Assembly (NCBI GenBank): GCA_964019055.1
Contig: OZ025221.1
Location: 7,408,468-7,472,467, forward strand
Direction of reading: 5' to 3'
Source of the DNA: Anthopleura xanthogrammica
Taxonomy: Eukaryota > Cnidaria > Anthozoa > Actiniaria > Actiniidae
DNA: 64,000 bases
Under the pieces are notes generated by a model. It was not told where the DNA came from. It made no database searches and saw only the letters and a program-made list of their open reading frames with translations. Shown here piece by piece: positions 703 to 63,000 of the stretch (its first letter is position 1; the number at the start of each line of letters is the position of its first letter). A program made the translations under genes and the position numbers.

Positions 703-1672
703 TGGATGAATAATGAATGGGAAAGAACGAACGAACGAAATGCGAACGGATGGATGGATGACAAGCTTGATAGATATATGGATGGACAAATAAATGAACG
801 ATATAATTGATGAAAAATGAAAAGAAGGAAAGAAAGAAAACCAGCAGGTATATAATCCGAACTTCTCCCTGTGTCTTTCTCTCTCTTGGAGTTCAAAACG
901 TTACTCCGTGTCATGCCAGATCCCACTGCACGTCTCTCGTCACTCAAACACAAGGCAAGGAAGTTCAGTAGGGTTTTTGAAAATTGATACTTTATTATAA
1001 ACATCTTTCGTTAATGTTGTTCATACTTATATTTGATATTTGTATTTGTTATATTATTTATTTTTTTGTTGTTGATTGCTGCTGTCGTTTGTTCTTAGCT
1101 ATTTCTTTGGCGGCTAATATATGAACTTAAAAAATAAAATTTGTCTTTCGTTATTTGCGTGATTCAATGAACCTGGGAATTCAGATGGGCAGGAGTCTAT
1201 AGCGATCGACATGTCAAACATAATCTTTAGTCGACGGCAACATGGTGGCTATGACGTCACATGCACCCTAAGAATTTAGAGTGATGACTGATATTTAGTG
1301 ATGACTGATATTTTTGCACAATTTTCATATGAATCAAAGGAAATAATTCTATCCCTGATGTAATAAATTTCAAGTTCTTTACTTCGATCACACGATCTTA
1401 TTCACACATCTTGAAGTGACCGGTCTGTATAATAATGATCATGGTGTCAGGTGATCCTGTTTGCTCACATTATCCTGTTCGGAAAAAAGATACATATTTT
1501 AATGTAAAAATCAAATGAGTGCATTTTCATTTTAATGGGGAATTTCTGGCCGCCAAAAGATGCTGTAATACACGCAACAACATAGTACCAGCGATGAAGA
1601 TATCTGCATGCAGCAACAACTGCAGTCCGCCAAGAAACTTAGGCTACAATACATATGTCACAAAATAGGGTT
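703..1672. other. Non-coding stretch left of the transposon
   Basis: Holds simple GAAC/GGAT-rich microsatellite-like sequence near 720-840 and a short direct duplication (GTGATGACTGATATTT twice near 1281-1312). No coding region, RNA gene or clear regulatory site is visible. Confidence 0.4.
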
Positions 1673-1981
1673 CCGTGGGAATTTTGTGATTAAAGCAAGC
1701 AACAAGTCTAGTTATGTTCAGGGGACCTCATTTAACAAGAAAAGTGATGTTGCCAAGTTTGCAACCTGCACGGAGCCTTTTAAGGGGGGTTTTTGGAAAA
1801 TGACGTTTTTCACTAAGCATGAAAACGAGGCTCTATATTAAAACTCGAGATATCTCTGAAGTTTGGGCCTCAAGCCTCGGGAAACTTACAGGATAAGTTA
1901 ACAATCATCTAACTGGCCAATTGGATGTCACGTGACAGTATTAGCATGAAATCGAGGCTGGCCATATAATTTCAAAAAATC
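1673..1981 (+). repeat. Left terminal inverted repeat of the transposon
   Basis: It reads from CCGTGGGAATTTTGTGATT to GGCCATATAATTTCAAAAA and matches the reverse complement of 7408-7717 almost throughout. Both arms share TTTTTGGAAAATGACGTTT and a palindromic GTCACGTGAC. A plus-strand open frame inside it (1608-1841) is a by-product and not a gene. Confidence 0.9.
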
Positions 1982-2145
1982 CTTTTTTACGAAAAAACGT
2001 TGTCCAATTATATTTTTTCTGTTGAGGAAGACTGGGTAAGAACATGCTATGCAGATGGTCAGCGGTTTCTATAATCAAATATATTGTCCGCCATGTTTTC
2101 TCTGTAGCATCTGTAAGTAGCAATGCATGACTTTTTCACGTTGAA

Positions 2146-5100
2146 ATGGCGGGCAATTCTTCACAGCAACTAGATTTAGATGCATCACTATGTGTTTTAT
2201 GCCAAGAGGTGACCGAAGAAAGATTAGTTGAGAATCCAGTGTCACACGAAAAGCTACTCGATTTTCTTAAAGATTGGAACACTTACGGCGATTCACGATT
2301 TTCTGAAGCTTGGTTCCGTTTAGAAAAGTGTACAACTCAGCAATTATTTGCTGAGCATGCATCGTGGCACAGGAAGTGTTACCAAGAGGCCACGCATGTG
2401 GGAAAGTTGAAGAGAGCAAAGGACAGATACGAGAGAGAGCAGGATGATGCTACTGTCAAGCGGAAATTAACACGATCACAGACATTGCCACTCCACAGGG
2501 ACACATGCTTCTTCTGTGAGCAGGGCTCGGGTTACCGAGAGAATCTCCATTCTGTGAGCACTAGTTCAGCAGGAAAGGCTATTCGTGCTTCTGTAGATAT
2601 TAGTGGAAATGACAAGTTACTGGTCAAGCTGTTGACAGCTATTGATGCTAATGATGCCCATGCCATAGACATCAAATATCACAACAAATGTTACACGAAA
2701 AACGTAACCAACGTGTTGAGACGTAGTTCTAGAAAAGATCCAGAACAGGATGGAACTTACATCGCTGCACAGATTGAATTTTTGGATGTAGCAGGAAGTA
2801 TTTTAAGAGAAGGGAAACCTGTTAGTATGGCAGAACTTGAGGCTATTTACTTAGACGTCATGGAGGAAAATAATGTAGAAACAACCAGCTCCTGTCGAAA
2901 AGCACTGAAGCAACTGCTAGCTGATGAGATATGCGGCATTGAATTCCACAAGCCTATACGTAAGAATGAGTCAGAACGTGTTTCTATTAAAGAAACTAGA
3001 GATGTCTCAATATTATCAATGGAGGAGAATCGGTCTATAACCAGTGATATGAAGAATCTTTACGAAGCTGCTGCAGTGTTAAGAAAGCGCATTAACAAAT
3101 GTAAGCAGTGGGAGTTTAGAGGCAAGCTAGACGACATAAACGACTCGCAATTACCGAAAGAACTCTGCTGCTTTTTCCGATGGATAATTCAAGGACCGAA
3201 GGATTTCGCATCAGGTAAGATAGTGCTCGTTTAACTTATAGTTAACAATAATAAAATCGAGGATATTATTATTGACTTTGCAGATGATAAATCCTCTGAA
3301 GTACATAAACGTGCAGTGAGCCTAGCCCAGAGTACTGTGTCGTTGACTTTGACAGAACGTCAAGTAAGGAATGTGAAGTCTGAAGTAATAAGGGTAGCAA
3401 GAGAAATGCCTCAGCAGCTTGCTGTTGGAATAGCCATTCACCAGGCCATTAGAAGCAAAGAGATAATAAATTTTCTCCATGGTTTTGGTATGTCTGTAGA
3501 ATATAACAGGATCTTGAGAGTCGAAGCTCAGATAGAAAAGGTTGTTCTGCAGCGTATGGAGCAAAATGGTGGAGTTTACCTTCCTCCAGATGTTGTTTTA
3601 GGACGACGTGTGTTCTTCGCGGCCGACAATGTCGATTTTTCAGAGGACACTCCAGATGGCAAACATACTCTTCACGGGACAGCCTTGGCAATATACCAGA
3701 AGACCCACCCTGAAGACGTGACACCGCAGCTCAGGTTGGCATTTAAATCCTTGTCATTCTCAACCTTAATTTTCTGGAAATGACAAAGTGTTTTTCTCTC
3801 TTTCAGGCTCAGTGTCAATTCACGTCAAGTGGACCGTTCCGTTAGAGAGGTACCTGAGGTAACATTGCTAGACTGCCCAAATCCCCCTAAGACCCCCAAG
3901 AGTCCTACGTACCGTTCGTTTAGCTTGTTATCGGATGAAGAGATTCCCGCTACAGTGAAAGATGTCGCTTGGTTGTTGAGTCGCAGCAGGACATGTGCTT
4001 CTGATGAGGGTGCAGCAAGTAACGATGCTACGAATCCTGAAGGTGAACCCTCTCGTAGTACTCCTGTCCCAGTTTGGTCTGGCTATAATTCTCTTATTCA
4101 CAAGGCTCAACCTGCCACAAGAATAGGATCTCCCCCACTAATTGCAGCCCCTGCGCACGAATGGAACACCATGCTCACAGTTTTGATGCAAGCGCAAGGG
4201 ATCACAGCAAAAGTAATGGGCGCCGGGCACAAGACCGTGATATCCCTTGACTTGGGTTTGTACCAGCCTGCTAAGAAGCTACAAATGGCTAGGAATGACT
4301 TGAAGAATTTAATTTTACGCCCTGGAGAGTTACATATCGTGATGGCTCAGCTGCGCACGATAGGCTGCTACATCGAGAACAGTGGCATTGACCTATGTTG
4401 GGTGGAATCCAACCTGTATGGCCCTACAACGACAAAGCAGATCATTGAAGGAAAACATGTAAAGAGGGGAGAGGCCGCACACATGGTAACTCTACAAGCC
4501 CTGTTTGCATTATACCAGAAAGCCTTCTTAGACAAGCAGGATGCGCAGATGGTGACACAAGTCGACACATTTGCAAAGCAGCTTGGGAGTGCGTGCTTAA
4601 GTGGAACCAAGGAGAAGATAATAGAAGCTAGTGCCAGAATGGAGGAAGCTATAAAGTCTCTTGATGTTATTGGCAAGATGAAAACGTTTGATGAAGAGCA
4701 CAGCCAGATTCCAGAATTCCAGATCTTCCGTCACTACATGCGTATGGTAATAGAGATGATGCTTTTCATGAGAGCTGTCCGAACCGGGGACTGGAAACTC
4801 CATCTTTCGTCGCTTACGTTGTTTACCAAGTACTTTTTCGCCAACGATCGATTGAATTACGCAAGGATGATGCCACTGTACCTAGCTGAAATGCAGATGC
4901 TAGAAGCCACAGACCCAGAAGTATACCGAGAGTTTATGGATGGTAATTGGGTCGTAAACAAAAATCCTAATGTTGCGTTTTGCGCTCTTGGAGCGGACAA
5001 TGCCCTGGAACAAATCAATCGCTCAATGAAGGTCTCAGGAGGGCTCGTAGGAATCACTTTGAATCCAAATGCTCGTACAAAGTTTTTTCTCATTGCACCA

Positions 5101-7056
5101 GAGCTTGCCCGTCTAGCAGAGGAAGCGAAAGAAATGGCTGGTAAAACATCAACAAAAGAAGGTACTCATCACCACACCCTGACAGCGTCCGTGATTTCTC
5201 GCGAAGAGAAAAATATCGAGAAGCTGATGACGACGATAGAGAATTTCACTAACCCTTTTAGTTCAGAGAGCAGCGAGCTATTCAACCTTGTCACCATGGT
5301 CGTGGTACCAAAAGACATCAAAACGGATCTTCTAGCACAAAGTGACATTGGTCAAAAGCTCTTCCAATCGTTTGTTGACGACCGAATCAAGTCGGACAAG
5401 GTCAATGTCTGGTCGCCGATGAAGAAGCAAAAGCTGACGACGTGGAAAACCATTTCCAAGAAGGTCAAGGTAGCTGTAGGTGAGGAAACCATAGAGCTAA
5501 GAGAAGATAGGAGCCTATTTGCCCGTATGCTAGTTGTATGCAAGCACCGTCCCGAGATCGACATCAAAGATGCTGTTGGCACGTACGAGTTCTCTGTTGT
5601 ACCTCGAGCAATGTTTGCAGCCGACGGAGCAATGCTTCATTGCTCAGCGAAGAGTGCCCTGATGTCCTTGCTGGAGAAAGTACCGCCGTGCCCCATCAGA
5701 GCAACAAGTGAAGATATCGAAGGCGCATCACGTCTAAGGATTTGTATTATTGATGGAATGGCTGAAGTCCAATCTCTCGACAAGCCAGAGTGGATACGCA
5801 ACTGTTCTCAGCTTGCAGATCACTTCGTCTGTCGAATTTACGAGAAATATGGCCGTGAAAGCGATGAAATCCACCTGATCTTTGATCGCTATGATCTTTC
5901 TTCATCACTGAAAGAAGCTACCCGTGTGAAGCGACAAGGAAATGAAGCTCCGATTCACTATCGTATCACTTCTTCTACTCTCATCACAAAGATACCGATG
6001 AAGAAGCTTCTTTCCCATGCAAACACAAAGAAAGATTTGGCGGAATATTTGGCAAAGAGAGCCCTTGAGCAAGCAGCAAGGAGTAGACGCCGGATAGTAG
6101 TCGCATGGGGTTGTGAGTGCAAAGGAACCCATAAGGATATGACATATCTCAAGAGCAATCATGAGGAAGCAGACACTAAGATTATTCTGCATGCGCTTGA
6201 CGCCACTATCAATGGTGCAACGGAAATCCGCATACATTCTCCAGATACGGATGTATTTATACTGGCTCTAAGGCGTTACCCAGAACTTTGCCAGAAAACG
6301 GTCTTTGTTACTGGCAAAGGACAGAACCACCGTGAGATCTTGCTACAGCCAATAGTCCATGCACTTGGTCCCGTTAAGACAGCTGCACTTCCCGCCTTCC
6401 ATGCTCTGACAGGAGCAGACAATACAGGGTCATTTGCTACTAAAGGAAAGTCCAAATGCTGGGAAGCATTTAATGAAGCAAGTGAAGAAGTGATCTCCGC
6501 CATATCATGCCTCGGGACAAGTGAACTCCCCAACGCAGAGACAGAGATTGCGATTGAGAAACTTGTCTGTCAGTTTTTCTTGCCAAAAACGGAAATCACA
6601 AGTGTCAAGGAGCTCAGATGGTGGCTTTTCAAGAAAAAACAAGCGCGGTCTGAAAAGCTACCGCCCACGTCAGCTGCCCTCAAACAGGCCATCCTTCGCG
6701 CCCACTACCAGCTGCTGGTATGGAATCATGATAACATCGCTATTGTAGAGCTACCATCACCTGGAAGGTACGGATGGACGTGGCAAAACGAGAGATGGGT
6801 ACCTGTGATGACCACACTGTCGCCGGCCCCGGATGCCATCATCCATCTGGTAAAGTGTGGATGCTCCAAGGATAGGTGCACAAACAATCGCTGCCGATGC
6901 ATGAAGGCTGGGCTAAATTGCACCGACCTTTGTGGTTGCTGTGACAGTGATGAAACTGAATGCGAGAACATGACAAGAGAAGATGATGAGGAGCTTATAG
7001 ACGAGATCTCAGACTCGGACTCTGACTCTGACGATTCAGAAAACGAAATGGCATGA
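2146..7056 (+). CDS. Transposon protein with zinc modules, FEN-like nuclease domain and CXC domain (3 exons)
   Basis: Exons 2146-3214, 3284-3734 and 3807-7056 join through TCAG|GTAAG...TTTGCAG and CTCAG|GTTGG...TTTCAG into one open frame of 1589 aa. Two Cys/His modules sit at the N-terminus: C16-x2-C19 with H75-x3-C78, and C121-x2-C124 with H179-x2-C182. The middle (roughly 800-930) has a conserved-looking stretch with D904, E908 and Q909 followed by NR and a GG-x2-GIT segment, a candidate transposase core. Residues about 1150-1385 read like the FEN1/XPG 5'-nuclease fold: IIDGM (D1156), FDRYD (D1200), HEEADTK (E1293, E1294, D1296), SPDTDV (D1320, D1322) and LTGADNTG (D1378), in the family's usual order. 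Residues 1524-1559 form one Cys-rich repeat of the tesmin/TSO1 CXC type, which binds DNA in other proteins. The tail is acidic (Asp/Ser). The start is ATG 2146, just inside the left arm. The nuclease reading is strong by motif order but unproven. Confidence 0.85.
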
Positions 7057-7197
7057 AGTGGTCATTTTAAAATTTCCCCGTGTTTAAAAAAAAAAACGAA
7101 TCACTTGTTAACGCCAGTAGTAGTACATATGTAAATAAGATAAGTAAAGAAACTTAGAAGCAACTAGAAGTCAGCAATTGCATTGTAGAAATAAGGA

Positions 7198-7203
7198 AAT
7201 AAA
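7198..7203 (+). terminator. Poly(A) signal of the transposon gene
   Basis: AATAAA lies 142 bp after the stop codon and before the right terminal repeat, so the transcript can end within the element. Confidence 0.5.
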
Positions 7204-7407
7204 ACGCAAAAGTAGATTATCAGAATTTCTCAGAATTGGGCTCCCTGTGGTTTTCAGCTTTTTTTATTGAATTAAAGTTACTTGCCCTTATTTTCTCATG
7301 GACATAGCGTAAAGTCACTTGTGGTACTCCATTCTAGGTTGCCCTTGTCAAGCCATCGCTTATAATCACATATAAAGTACAATTACACACGAAATGTTGG
7401 AATTTTT

Positions 7408-7717
7408 GGAATTTTTGAAATTATATGGCCAGCCTCGATTTCATGCTAATACTGTCACGTGACATCCAATTGGCCAGTTAGATGATTGTTAACTTATCCT
7501 GTAAGTTTCCCGAGGCTTGAGGCCCAAACTTCAGAGATATCTCGAGTTTTAATATAGAGCCTCGTTTTCATGCTTAGTGAAAAACGTCATTTTCCAAAAA
7601 CCCCCCTTAAACGGCTCCGTGCAGGTTGCAAACTTGGCAACATCACTTTTCTTGTTATTTGAGGTCCTCTGAACATAACTAGACTAGTTGCTTGCTTTAA
7701 TCATAAAATTCCCACGG
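7408..7717 (-). repeat. Right terminal inverted repeat of the transposon
   Basis: Inverted partner of the left arm. It differs by scattered substitutions (for example CCTTTTAAGG on the left against the equivalent of CCGTTTAAGG here) and ends at CCCACGG near 7717. Confidence 0.9.
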
Positions 7718-7875
7718 GATGACACATGCTCCTGCAGTCTCTTAGTCCTACATCCTTGGTGCCCTGAGTTGGACGCTAGAGCGAGAGGACGTCTCGTACC
7801 CATTTCGCTACGCCCGAAACAGGATCTAAGTTTTCTGCTTCAGGTTTGTATGATTAACCCATATCGTTGACTAAC

Positions 7876-10800
7876 CTTTCATAGAGAGGATTTTCAGATT
7901 TCATTGGTTTAGGGTCGTCTGTTTTCTTCTGTATCGTAACACTGTAAAAAAAACATGACATAAAACTGCATTAGAACCTTATTGGCATTATTTTCTTTGG
8001 GGCTCGGGGGTGGAGAAGGTGGTGACAATCCACGATTCACCATGCGCGTAGTCGTGCAAAAGTTCCTGCCAAAAACACCAGTTTTGTTCAAAAATGGCAA
8101 TTAAGTTTTTAAGTATCTTTTCACCTTTCATACAGTGGATTATCAGTTTTCATATCGTCCCTGAAAATGAAGAAATATTGTTTAAATTCTGCATTCAAGT
8201 AAAATACGTTGTCTCCGATCAAACCTATGTAGCTATTTGGATTTTCTGTTCTACAAGCAAGAAAAGTTTTAGTCGAAAATGTATAACCATTTTGCATTAG
8301 TTGTGGGTCCCATATAGAGCGGTTTTCGTATGCATGAGTGGGAAACAACACGGCTAATTCAGTCGTAGCCGTACAGTAGCCGTACCGTATCTTACCGTAG
8401 CCGTAACAACGCGTTGTGATTGGATAAATTACTAGAAGATAATAGGAAGCCATTTCAATGTTACAGCATGTCGTGCCGTGTACGTGCTGTAAGTCAGTAC
8501 CGTTGGTTTCCCACTCACACGAAAACTGCTCTAACAAAATCATGAACAATACTTACGGTGTGGCATAAATTGGATTTTTCGAATTCTCTAATGCATCTTC
8601 TTCGCCGTCGTTACTTTTTTCTTTATCTTTGCTATAAGTAAAAACCAGATGTGAACATTTGAATACGTTCCTAATGAAATTGGTGACATATGCCAACGAT
8701 ACCAAAACAGAATGAGAAGCATGTAATTTCTAAATTTCAATTCAATCATGGAACGAGGGCAACAGAATTGTTAGCCACTGGCTATCAAGTGCTATTCTCG
8801 TAAAAACAAGTACGGTAAGCATCCTGCAGAATTAGCACTACTATAAACATCTCTCTTCAATCCACGTCCCTTCTTCCCGTCGCACCCCTACAAAGGTTAG
8901 GAATTACCTGCATAGAAACACAGAACTACCATATATGGGGTTGTCACTCAGTTGTGATTCTGGGATAATCTCCACGTCTTGACCACTAAATCATTAACAA
9001 ATACAAAATAAAATAAGCCAATGGATTGGAAGTCAAAACCTGGTATCTCAGTACGCGTGTTTGTAAGAAAAAAAGGCGGGAAAACTAAGCAGGCGCGTCA
9101 AAACATGTCAATGTTAAGTGCAAAAGCCATGAAGCTTGAGAGTACTTTGTTAGAAAAAAGGCGGGAAAACTGAGCAGGCGCGTCAAAACATGTCAATGTT
9201 AAGTGCAAAAGCCTTGAAGCTTGAGAGTATTTTGTTAGAAAAAAGGCAGGAAAACTGAGCAGGCGCGTCAAAACATGTCAATGTTAAGTGCAAAAGCCTT
9301 GAAGCTTGAGAGTATTTTGTTAGAAAAAAGGCAGGAAAACTGAGCAGGCGTGTCGAAACATGAGTGAACAAAAGACATGTAGCTTGAGAGTACTTTGTTA
9401 GAAAAAGGCGGGAAAACTGAGCAGGCGTGTCGAAACATGAGTGAGCAAAAGACATGTAGCTTGAGAGTACTTTGTTAGAAAAAGGCGGGAAAACTGAGCA
9501 GGCGTGTCGAAACATGAGTGAGCAAAAGCCATGTAGCTAGACAGTACTTTGCATGCATTTCTTACTTCTACATCTTATAAAGAAAAGAAAAAAAGAATTT
9601 TATGCTTACTATAGTTTGCTTAGATTACCTGTACATGTCTATAGTATTTGAATTCCTTGAAATACGAAGACCACTGGAATCACTACTATATCTGATGGAC
9701 AGCAAACTGCGGTTAAGTTTTACTGCTTTTCCAAACCTACGAAAATAAATGTGTCATTTTAATGGACTCCATGCATGATACGCTACAACAATCTACACAG
9801 GCTTCTTGTCTTATTTTTACCTATTTTTATCATTATGACGTCAAAACTGACTAAGACCTGACGTCACATAAGTGCCTTATCTTACATGAAATTGTTTAGG
9901 AACAGAGGACTAGATGTCGTAGGTGCAAAACCCACAGAAGTAAATTTTACCGATACGGCGGCCATCTTGGATTTTATTGTTTTAAGCAAGACATCATGAG
10001 ATGTTGAGGGGGCAATTATTGGAAAATTTATAGTACAGTATGCACAGCTGTCAGTGTCTTTTTATGTAATTTAACGTTATCCGCTGAGAAGCAAGTCTAA
10101 AAACTAATTCAATTTGCTGGTAGTTGAAGCAATATGTGAAACATGAAAGCGTAAAATTATTTAAGAATGTAACCCCGCCACTCTTTGCTTTATAAATATT
10201 TCCACTTTTGCCCCCTCAGCATCCCATAATTCAAGATGGCCGCCGTATCAGTAAAAAAGGTCTATTGCAAAATCTTTGTTCCTAAATTGCTTGAACGAAC
10301 ATAAAATTATAACTATAAAAATTGGTTTTAATGAAACCTTTTCATACCTGCAATACACCAAGCATCCAGCAGCCACTAACAGACCTACAACAGTTAAGGT
10401 CACTGCAGTAGCAATGACCCATGACTTGGCTTGTGACTTTCTTTGCTCTGCTTCACCTGCAGCAGTTACCAGCAGCTTGATTGTAAAGCTTTTATTCCTT
10501 GCCACAGTTGAACCAACAGTCTTGTCTTGTGTTGTAGTTTCAGTGAGAGGAATAGTCCTTGGAGTACTAGGAATGTCAGTTGTGTTTTCTTTTGTTGTTG
10601 ATGTTGTTGGTGGTGTTGTTGTTGTTATGGTTCGTGTTGTTGTTGTGTTTCTTGTTGGCATTGTCGTTGTTGTTGTCTTTGTCGTTGTGTTTGTTGTGTT
10701 TGTTGTGTTATTGTGGATTTGTAAGTGTGAAGTTGGTAGTGCTGTAGTAGGTCCTAGAAATAAAAAAATTGGCCTTGTTGAGCTCAACTTCTAGTTTCTT

Positions 10801-14096: not shown

Positions 14097-15066
14097 TAAA
14101 AAAGAATAAAATATAAAGAATAAAATATAAAGAATAAAATATAAAGAATAAAATATAAAGAATAAAATATAAAGAATAAAATATAAAGAATAAAATATAA
14201 AGAATAAAATATAAAGAATAAAATATAAAGAATAAAATATAAAGAATAAAATATAAAGAATAAAATATAAAGAATAAAATATAAAGAATAAAATATAAAG
14301 AATAAAATATAAAGAATGAAATATAAAGAATAAAATATAAAGAATAAAATATAAAGAATAAAATATAAAGAATAAAATATAAAGAATAAAATATAAAGAA
14401 TAAAATATAAAGAATAAAATATAAAGAATAAAATATAAAGAATAAAATATAAAGAACAAAATATAAAGAATAAAATATAAAGAATAAAATATAAAGAACA
14501 AAATATAAAGAATAAAATATATAGAATAAAATATAAAGAATAAAATATAAAGAATAAAATATAAAGAATAAAATATAAAGAATAAAATATAAAGAATAAA
14601 ATATAAAGAATAAAATATAAAGAATAAAATATAAAGAATAACATATAAAGAATAAAATATAAAGAATAAAATATAAAGAATAAAATATAAAGAATAACAT
14701 ATAAAGAATAACATATAAAGAATAAAATATAAAGAATAAAATATAAAGAATAAAATATAAAGAATAAAATATAAAGAATAAAATATAAAGAATAACATAT
14801 AAAGAATAAAATATAAGGAATAAAATATAAAGAATAAAATATAAAGAATAAAATATAAAGAATAAAATATAAAGAACAAAATATAAAGAACAAAATATAA
14901 AGAACAAAATATAAAGAATAAAATATATAGAATAAAATATAAAGAACAAAATATAAAGAATAAAATATAAAGAATAAAATTTAAAGAATAAAATATAAAG
15001 AATAAAATATAAAGAATAAAATATAAAGAACAAAATATAAAGAATAAAATATAAAGAATAAAATAT
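14097..15066. repeat. 14-bp minisatellite, ~69 copies
   Basis: Unit AATAAAATATAAAG repeated for about 970 bp with rare single-base variants (ACA for ATA, GAACA for GAATA). The unit length is not a multiple of three and the reverse complement has no stop codon, so all three minus frames stay open for hundreds of codons. These frames are not genes. Every unit carries the plus-strand hexamer AATAAA. It lies just upstream of the signal-peptide exon of the ApeC-CUB receptor gene. Confidence 0.97.
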
Positions 15067-60077: not shown

Positions 60078-63000
60078 TCAAGTCTCAAGGGATTGTAGTA
60101 GTTCTTTCTCAACATCAGACCATATATCTTTTCCTGTCTCCAAACAATCAATCAGTATGCTAACCTTTTTGTCATCAAGACTTGGATCCTGAAATAGAAG
60201 AGGCCGGATTGAAATATAATTAAAAAAAAAAATGAACTTGTTAGTGGGGTTAGAGGGTCCTGTTTTTAAATTAAATTTTTTTAAACCCAAATTAATGCTG
60301 ATTTGAAATCAATTAAGAAAAAAAGGATGTCCCAGGGTTGTTTTCAAGATATCCAGTTTTTTTTCACATGCACATTGTGGCATCAAATTGCTTGTTTCAT
60401 GGCGACATTGAGATTGCAAAGTAGCGCGCCCAGTAGCTTCATTTCTCTATGGTAGGCAGCCACCTTAAGAAATAAATTTGAAATGCAAGGGTCTTGAAGA
60501 GGTCACATGCTTGATTACGGAGACACAGTATTTAATTAAAAAGAAGCTTCAACATGGCCAATAAGAAAAACAATAAAATTGCAAAATGCAAAATCCTCAT
60601 TTTACCTTTTTTAATTTATTCAAGTCATCAGAAAAGTTTGAGGTGATCATCTCCATGTAAAAATCCCGAAAACTTTTCTTTGGTTTTTCTGCAGTATCCT
60701 GTGTCTTCAAATAAAATGTTTTTTATTAGGCTGGGGCAATAAAGATATATAAATAATAAAATATATATAATATTGTAAATATTATACCGTAATATTGTAA
60801 ATAATATACCGTACAATAGGCTTATAAACAAAAGCAAAAATGACGCCGAAGCGGCAACGCGCACTAATTAGATCAACACTAATTAGACGCTCACTAATTA
60901 GACCTACACCGCCCATTACGCAACACCAGGTAATTGTGCTATTGTGTATCGTGGCAGTATAAATATGACCTATCTGACTTTATCCTTCACTTGACTCTGA
61001 AGATGACTTCCGCTCAGGTTGTCGAAACGTCAGTCACATCAAACAGTCGTTCTCAGGACTACATCCACCCGGATGATCATAATACAAATATTGTTTCTTC
61101 GACAAATATTGTTACTTCGATATATATATATATAATATATAGACAAGGAAGTTAGTTGAAAAAAGTAGGAAGGACCACATAAACTTACACAAATATTTGA
61201 TGAAAAAAAATCTGAACATCTTAATTTTTTTTACACCCAAGGCATCAGAAAAAGTAAACGGCAAAAAAAAGAGTGAACAACTGACCAAGGGAATGCATAA
61301 ATGTAAAGAGAAAAAAAACGAGAAAAAAATTAATGAAAATATCCAAATATTGTATACATCCAAAAAAAAATGCCAAAAAGAGCAATCGAATGACCAAAAA
61401 TAAAAAATAAAAGAAAGAAAGGAAGAAAGAAGGAAAGAAAGAAAGAAAGAAAGAAAACGCCTAGAATATAACAAGATATCTGATTGGTTCGTTGAAATGC
61501 GTTTCTAAACCAATTAGAATTCAGTTTAGATATCCTCGCTACCTTCACGTCGGCCATGTTGTTTTAGTTTCCACGAGGTTTGTAAAATCGTATTCTGTAC
61601 AAATTAATGTCAAAATGTCCAAGAGAAAAGTTCGTTTTGGAGAAGATGAGCTCAACAAGAGTGAAGAAATGGAGGATAAGGATTCAGCTAAGCGTTTTAA
61701 AGCTAAACATTCGCTAGACAGTGACGAAGAAGAGGATAACGAAGAAGAAGTGAAGAACGATGCCTACGTCTTGACAGAAGATGACGTTGAAGGACAAGAA
61801 GATTCAACTATAGACCACGATGGAGAGATTAAAATAACGCCTTTTAACTTGAAGGAGGAGATGGATGATGGCTATTTTGATTCAGAGGGGAATTATTTCC
61901 TTAAGAAAGAAAAAGAGATACGCGATGACTGGCTGGATAGTATTGACTGGGGAAAAGTTCAAGAGAAGGATAACAAAACCACAGATGAAAAGATGGAATC
62001 TTCTGATCAGTTTGAGGATGCTAGTGAAATAAATACAGCAGAGTTTTTGCAGAAGATCGTTGCAATCCTTAAACCTGGAGAGACTATTTTAAGTGCTATA
62101 AGACGTCTTGGGGGGAAGACAAAGTCGTTGTCTGCATCTGCAAAGCTGAAAGCTAAAAAGCAAAAACAACAAGCTAGTGAACCAAAAGATAACGAAGAAA
62201 ATAAAAAACAGCTACTAAGCTTAACAGAACTTGCAGATACTCTCTTGCAGGGTGGAGATTTTGGTATTTATCAGGATACTTATGAAAAACTGCAGTATAA
62301 ACTGAAAAAAGTAACTGAAGAAGCAAAAAAGTTGGATGATGATGATGAATTAGAGGCTGCATTTCGTCAGTCTGAAGGCAAAGCCGAGGAAAAACCACAA
62401 GCCTCATCTGGGAGCAAAAATATTGCAGATGAAAATGGGGTATACTGGCAGTATAAGTGGGATGATTCTAAAAATGCTGAGATATTTGGGCCCTTTACGT
62501 CATCTGAAATGCATGATTGGACTGAGCAAGGTTATTTTAAAGATGGTGTTTTGGTGCGCAAGCTGGCAGACAAGAATGAGGAACCTGAGGGACAGTTTTA
62601 TACCTCTAAGAGAATCGACTTTGAGCTATATACATGAAGATATATGTTTGTTATGATTAAGAATGCTCTGCAATACATGTTAAGGTGCATTAGCTACTGC
62701 TCAACTTCATAATATTATATGCACAATCATAGGGGCAGCTACACTTAAACATTAATTTGCAGTAGTAATATGGTATTAATGACATCCATTGAACCAGCCA
62801 AGCAAGTGCAATCACTGATCACCCAATCACAATGCTTAATCTTCTCATCCAACCAAAACACTTCATCAATATGACACTTTTCTGTTTTTTTCTGGTCAAG
62901 ACAAGACATCCCTAGTGATTTTCAAAGTCATATTATGTCTGTCTCTATGAGACATCCTAAGAGACGATATCTCAAGGTTATGGCATTATAAATAGATCAT

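Follow-up and report, generated by a model that had tools for sequence, protein, structure and literature searches.

A probable AcademX-type transposon of Anthopleura xanthogrammica that couples a proposed DDE transposase core to a predicted FEN-fold nuclease

Academ, a superfamily of DNA transposons, entered Repbase from a 2010 report (PMC4455052); in bivalves 100 Academ consensus elements have been built, with an Academ mean length of 5,565 bp (PMC10294476). In Kojima's account, AcademX elements make target duplications of 3-4 bp and AcademH elements duplications of 9-10 bp, a difference that is seemingly tied to the encoded enzyme, a nuclease in AcademX and a helicase in AcademH (PMC10045372). 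Eukaryotic DDD/E transposons with a nuclease also include KolobokD, KolobokE and KolobokP, whose nucleases are described as DEDDh, lambda-exonuclease-like and His-Me finger enzymes and thus differ from the FEN fold considered here (PMC9587614). The present work concerns an element of the cnidarian Anthopleura xanthogrammica that lies in a stretch of 64,000 nucleotides (hereafter the window; assembly GCA_964019055.1, contig OZ025221.1, positions 7,408,468 to 7,472,467 of the forward strand). It is likely that the window holds a copy of the AcademX type (the X stands for XPG), in which a proposed DDE core and a predicted FEN-fold nuclease may divide the work of transposition.

An initial annotation, made from the sequence alone, had read the gene at 2146..7056 as a transposon gene. 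Its surroundings bear this out, because the gene lies between 310-bp inverted repeats that are 98% complementary, and the genome holds near-identical siblings flanked by 3-bp target duplications. The element and its ends comprise:

1652..7734, + strand: the element, its extent shared with sibling copies (blastn against sibling loci and flank comparison)
1673..1982, + strand: left terminal inverted repeat, ungapped 310-bp core (repeat search; 98% complementary to 7408-7717)
7408..7717, - strand: right terminal inverted repeat, ungapped 310-bp core (repeat search)
1816..1832, + strand: sub-terminal motif AGCATGAAAWCGAGGCT, copy 1 (motif search of the window, as for copies 2 to 4)
1943..1959, + strand: sub-terminal motif AGCATGAAAWCGAGGCT, copy 2
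7431..7447, - strand: sub-terminal motif AGCATGAAAWCGAGGCT, copy 3
7558..7574, - strand: sub-terminal motif AGCATGAAAWCGAGGCT, copy 4

With one arm of the inverted repeat as query, the complete genome of 289.8 Mb (125 contigs) yielded 25 matches. Among the siblings, five copies of 3,998-4,203 bp, one of 2,974 bp and one of 449 bp were inspected. Each of the seven has TAGT...AGCAT-type termini and sits between perfect 3-bp target duplications (AAA, TAC, CAA, AAT, TTA, TAT and TAC); the count leaves aside the diverged copies L016-L020, the loci L034 and L042 that resemble a second family (family 2), and a third family. The 449-bp relative (L015 818-1266; duplication TAC) is non-autonomous. The window copy is eroded at 1652 and 7734, yet its last 362 codons are near-identical to those of its siblings. 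A longer duplication flanking the window copy was considered and dropped, being weak and equalled in 21 of 500 shuffles.

At the protein level the same genome yielded at least 57 matches, and several families with open frames of ~1600 aa are present. Family 2, whose proteins are 34-35% identical to the window protein, is present with frames of 1593-1595 aa at six or more loci. Over the 5,379 bp compared, four of its copies show 100% identity, and the six copies examined all have 3-bp duplications and the terminus TAGTCTAGGAGC. Termini of the form TAGTC[C/T]AGGAGC are common to the window family and family 2, with one end of L015 varying. The motif AGCATGAAAWCGAGGCT matches four times in the window, every match lying within the inverted repeats, and not once in 100 shuffles. 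Family 2 carries it on either side, and mismatched forms occur in L016, L017, L034, L042 and L049; a search of L018, L036, L043, L044, L050 and L053, which are loci without determined element ends, did not find it. Its copies constitute a candidate transposase-binding site.

Compared by description, the element shows no difference from AcademX in the features considered: both combine a transposase with a nuclease, and the duplications are 3-4 bp there and 3 bp here (PMC10045372). The terminal inverted repeats of AcademX have their counterpart in the 310-bp, 98% repeats and in the termini that the siblings hold in common, and the length of ~6.1 kb compares with the bivalve Academ mean of 5,565 bp (PMC10294476). 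AcademH, in contrast, is presented by Kojima as having a helicase instead of a nuclease and duplications of 9-10 bp, against 3 bp in the window family (PMC10045372); no helicase was detected in a Pfam scan of exons 1 and 3 of the window gene, the 150-residue exon 2 having been left out. By its described features, the element can be assigned with high confidence to the Academ superfamily as an AcademX type. The initial annotation had considered a transposase fused to a flap-type nuclease to be mechanistically new; this view is not supported, since AcademX is already described as nuclease-bearing (PMC10045372).

The gene within the element is predicted to consist of three exons:

2146..3214, + strand: predicted exon 1, an open frame from ATG with a GT donor at 3215
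3284..3734, + strand: predicted exon 2, with an AG acceptor at 3282-3283 and a GT donor at 3735-3736
3807..7056, + strand: predicted exon 3 including the stop codon, with an AG acceptor at 3805-3806 and an open frame to 7056

Joining these across two GT-AG introns inferred from the sequence, 3215-3283 (69 nt) and 3735-3806 (72 nt), yields a product of exactly 1589 aa without internal stops, and the predicted splicing is supported by related copies in the same genome that have a single uninterrupted frame of 1593 aa. The product carries the motifs IIDGM (starting at residue 1154), FDRYD (1199), HEEADTK (1292), SPDTDV (1318) and LTGADNTG (1374) in the order first described for it, with the residues as given, and these are followed by CGCSKDRC at 1524; the nuclease and CXC motif set exceeds chance.

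The central part of the protein had been called transposase-like, and this is borne out by the conservation of an acidic triad, a Pfam match and the topology of a homolog model:

3625..3627, + strand: D471, proposed first catalytic Asp of the DDE core (DNVDF), conserved in 49/49 of the first homolog set and 74/74 of the second
4249..4251, + strand: D655, proposed second catalytic Asp (SLDLGLY), 71/71 and 85/85
5008..5010, + strand: E908, proposed catalytic Glu (NALEQINR), 103/104 and 88/88
4729..5148, + strand: Pfam DUF6589 (PF20231) match, residues 815-954 (E 1.7e-5)

For the first set, conservation was counted from the letters aligned in each column among the 120 homologs listed of 161 matches. 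The second set comprises the 99 matches, query included, that were obtained when the core of P0099, a distant homolog, was searched. The DUF6589 match scored 24.1 bits in the Pfam scan (cut-off 27) and 27.2 bits in the genome search; a literature search met DUF6589 in no paper. In the predicted model of a homolog, P0057, the equivalent of D471 (D31) lies on the first strand, that of D655 (D247) just after a core strand, and that of E908 (E500) on a helix that follows a long all-helical insertion. The same order of strands and helices is seen in RNase H-like transposases, and we propose from the model that the strands and helices of the core follow the RNase H-like DDE order, an all-helical insertion preceding the Glu. 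The DDE core of the hAT transposase Hermes likewise has an all-helical insertion before its Glu; hAT target duplications are 8 bp.

Downstream of this core lies the predicted nuclease domain:

5647..6798, + strand: FEN/Exo1/XPG-fold nuclease domain, residues 1121-1504 (predicted model)
5752..5754, + strand: D1156, nuclease acid 1, 118/118 in the first set (as for the counts that follow)
5884..5886, + strand: D1200, nuclease acid 2, 113/115
6163..6174, + strand: E1293, E1294 and D1296, nuclease acids 3-5, 113/115, 113/115 and 114/114
6244..6252, + strand: D1320 and D1322, nuclease acids 6-7, 112/114 and 111/114
6418..6420, + strand: D1378, nuclease acid 8, 108/109

In the second set E1293 is the lowest (74/82, with Ala in five), and the remaining seven acids are conserved at 94-100%. 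That the C-terminal part adopts a fold of the FEN1/XPG type, as had been proposed from the order of the acidic motifs, is corroborated by predicted models and their Foldseek matches, and the FEN fold appears again in the predicted model of a homolog. A confident match to a known transposase over the whole C-terminal half, the outcome that had been named as contrary to this proposal, was not found. The models support a PIN-like fold with the FEN motif order, and the fold, the order of the motifs and their positions in the secondary structure suggest that the nuclease acids, which would correspond to the conserved metal-binding acids of the FEN/XPG superfamily, are clustered in space. Exo1, FEN1, XPG and GEN1 are 9-16% identical to the window domain in the rows shown and were undetected by sequence. 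FEN1 and Exo1 begin with their nuclease domain, whereas that of the window protein is internal, fused behind the transposase.

Putative DNA-binding modules stand at the two ends of the protein:

2191..2379, + strand: zinc module 1, C16-x2-C19 ... H75-x2-C78, conserved in 34/36, 35/36, 35/35 and 36/36 where aligned
2506..2691, + strand: zinc module 2, C121-x2-C124 ... H179-x2-C182, conserved in 34/35, 33/34, 40/40 and 38/40 where aligned
6856..6966, + strand: CXC (tesmin/TSO1-like) domain, residues 1524-1560 (Pfam TCR in homologs; LIN54 alignment)

The two C-x2-C...H modules that had been noted at the start of the protein hold up among the homologs, all eight residues (C16, C19, H75, C78, C121, C124, H179 and C182) being kept in 94% or more of the 34-40 rows that align there, and they are conserved where aligned in the second set too. 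The tesmin/TSO1-type CXC repeat, also noted at the outset, is supported more weakly than the other domains. A family profile matched LIN54 in the PDB at E 0.018; among nine homologs scanned for Pfam TCR, two reach the cut-off, four fall below it and three show no match, and no TCR match was reported for the window protein (exons 1 and 3 scanned, E up to 1). Our own cysteine pattern for the domain occurs in 18 of the 43 long homologs of the second set, and of 75 long homologs from the two sets together, 20 show a stricter pattern and 67 a looser one. The tyrosine of the LIN54 sequence KNYCEC contacts DNA. It is not retained in the window protein (NNRCRC), and because of this the DNA preference of the window CXC domain may differ from that of LIN54. 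Literature searched on CXC domains and transposases, judged by titles and the openings of abstracts, contained no such transposon.

The association of core and nuclease extends beyond this genome. The second set draws on sources that include Branchiostoma, Holothuria, Anneissia, Porites, Exaiptasia, Nematostella, Actinostola and the fish Epinephelus, and a nuclease profile was found in 88 of the 99 and in all 43 proteins of at least 1400 aa, the query among them; five of the 99 also belong to the first set, from which the profile had been built. The 11 proteins lacking it, that of Epinephelus included, are 910-1211 aa long; seven of these stop no more than 190 residues after the core, P0138 breaks off within the first nuclease motif, and P0137, P0189 and P0192 run on for 241-265 residues beyond the core without the profile. 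To judge from these sequences, the pairing seems to be a persistent feature of the family, not a fusion peculiar to one member. The best DUF6589 match in the Anthopleura genome (L067 1842-3602, 124 bits) lies at another locus in a long frame next to RecQ-like helicase frames on the opposite strand, the whole covering L067 1842-5999; these helicase frames match DEAD and Helicase_C above the respective cut-offs, and RecQ_Zn_bind with a score short of its own. This would be the composition expected of AcademH, and since the DUF6589 frame adjoins helicase frames as it would in AcademH, the one DUF6589 locus examined suggests that the domain is common to the AcademX and AcademH lineages.

The five siblings of about 4 kb (L009, L010, L012, L013 and L014) are palindromes: they hold the element's right half twice, in opposite orientations, as arms of 1.65-1.76 kb that are >99% identical. 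They have no transposase core; an open nuclease-CXC frame of 610 aa, which is element sequence from about residue 1081 onward, ends in residues 1074-1589. Two of them, at different loci, are 100% identical over 3,994 bp. Between the palindromes and the window copy there are 0-3 changes in the last 362 codons, so that the palindromes are too young for selection on their nuclease frame to be read. Palindromes of this kind would be made by interrupted gap repair that switches between the long inverted repeats, and their movement should need the core in trans. They are the only case seen of a nuclease frame without the core; solo-nuclease derivatives in several families were considered and dropped, because matches with a 741-aa frame are collinear at 98.9% with a longer copy (3.7 kb compared) and are thus copies with an interrupted frame and not core deletions. 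The 2,974-bp sibling (L011) is a rearrangement of another type than the palindromes.

Several observations weigh against the interpretation of the locus as an AcademX-type copy with a DDE core and a FEN-fold nuclease. The AcademX assignment was made from described features. Relative to its siblings, the window copy is missing the terminal 11 bp at its left end and 5 bp at its right end, and flank comparison shows no target duplication around it. Structural matches of the core to transposases, taken from the best 50 PDB rows of the comparison, are weak (Hermes, E 0.18 and probability 0.12; RAG1, E 2.0); in the comparison made with a full homolog model the best 50 rows all fall on the nuclease domain, and that list is for this reason uninformative about transposases. 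The Foldseek TM-scores for the FEN fold are modest, the ten best being 0.30-0.35 when normalised by the length of the model and 0.40-0.54 by that of the target. Neither phmmer of exon 3 against the PDB nor the profile against the PDB detected FEN, and Pfam scans of exons 1 and 3 and of nine homologs gave no FEN match; since every route by sequence alone failed, the domain is visible by structure only.

We infer the following mechanism in all its catalytic and binding steps. The N-terminal zinc modules would probably bind the sub-terminal repeats within the long inverted repeats. The RNase H-like DDE core, through D471, D655 and E908, would cut the 3' ends of the element and join them to target DNA with a 3-bp stagger. 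The FEN/Exo1-fold nuclease and the CXC DNA-binding domain would then act on the remaining strands, the nuclease most likely cutting the non-transferred 5' strand or trimming 5' flaps at the joints, after which the 3-nt gaps could be filled. We propose this 5'-strand role tentatively, with somewhat less than even confidence. Trimming of 5' ends after joining would leave the duplication length unchanged, since the gap is filled from the intact strand, and it is the transposase that should determine the stagger; this is an objection to tying the nuclease to duplication length. The literature searched, which did not cover the original AcademX/AcademH paper, contained no account of the role of the nuclease.

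A stricter form of this division would make the FEN-fold nuclease a dedicated second-strand cutter: the 5' strand would fall to it and the 3' ends to the DDE core, much as TnsA and TnsB share the labour in Tn7. We consider this form unlikely; if it were true, the 4-kb palindromes would be non-autonomous elements still able to supply nuclease. The initial annotation had suggested that the nuclease could be the actual cutting domain; put strictly, the FEN-fold domain would be the sole DNA-cutting enzyme and the DDE core a dead scaffold. The nuclease acids are near-invariant, and five palindromes retain an open nuclease frame and not the core frame; however, the conservation of D471, D655 and E908 is no less strict than that of the nuclease acids, and the palindromes are too young for frame retention to carry meaning. 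DDE strand transfer leaves uniform target duplications, and the duplications found here are uniformly 3 bp. Because the triad is kept as strictly as the nuclease acids, we regard the nuclease as unlikely to be the actual cutter, and the reading with a dead DDE core as very improbable.

The nuclease might instead be unneeded for transposition and serve the repair of excision gaps, a host response, or DNA binding alone. Interrupted gap repair by way of the long inverted repeats would explain the palindromes; against this, the catalytic acids are kept as well as the fold, and the domain is present in all 43 long proteins of the second set. We consider such a role less likely than not. A reading of the gene as domesticated by the host, and not as a transposon gene, is hardly credible: the exact window family has a single near-full-length match among the scored candidates and the ends of the window copy are eroded, but the gene is framed by 310-bp inverted repeats, has near-identical siblings with target duplications, and belongs with related families that have several open-frame copies in the same genome.

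Elsewhere in the window, 69 tandem copies of an AT-rich 14-bp unit, with 97% matches, occupy 14101-15066 and coincide with a local drop in GC content, and a second array at 9060-9551 has 85-bp units grading into 77-bp units. A 381-aa frame at 61492-62637 carries a C-terminal GYF domain (E 1.1e-14) and is presumably a host gene of the CD2BP2 type.

Nuclease-bearing Academ elements are already known as a kind. The Anthopleura genome holds several families with open frames of ~1600 aa, copies identical over >5 kb, and a locus in which DUF6589 adjoins helicase frames. The genome is for this reason a natural place to ask why one transposase family would have a flap nuclease as its partner in one lineage and a helicase in the other.

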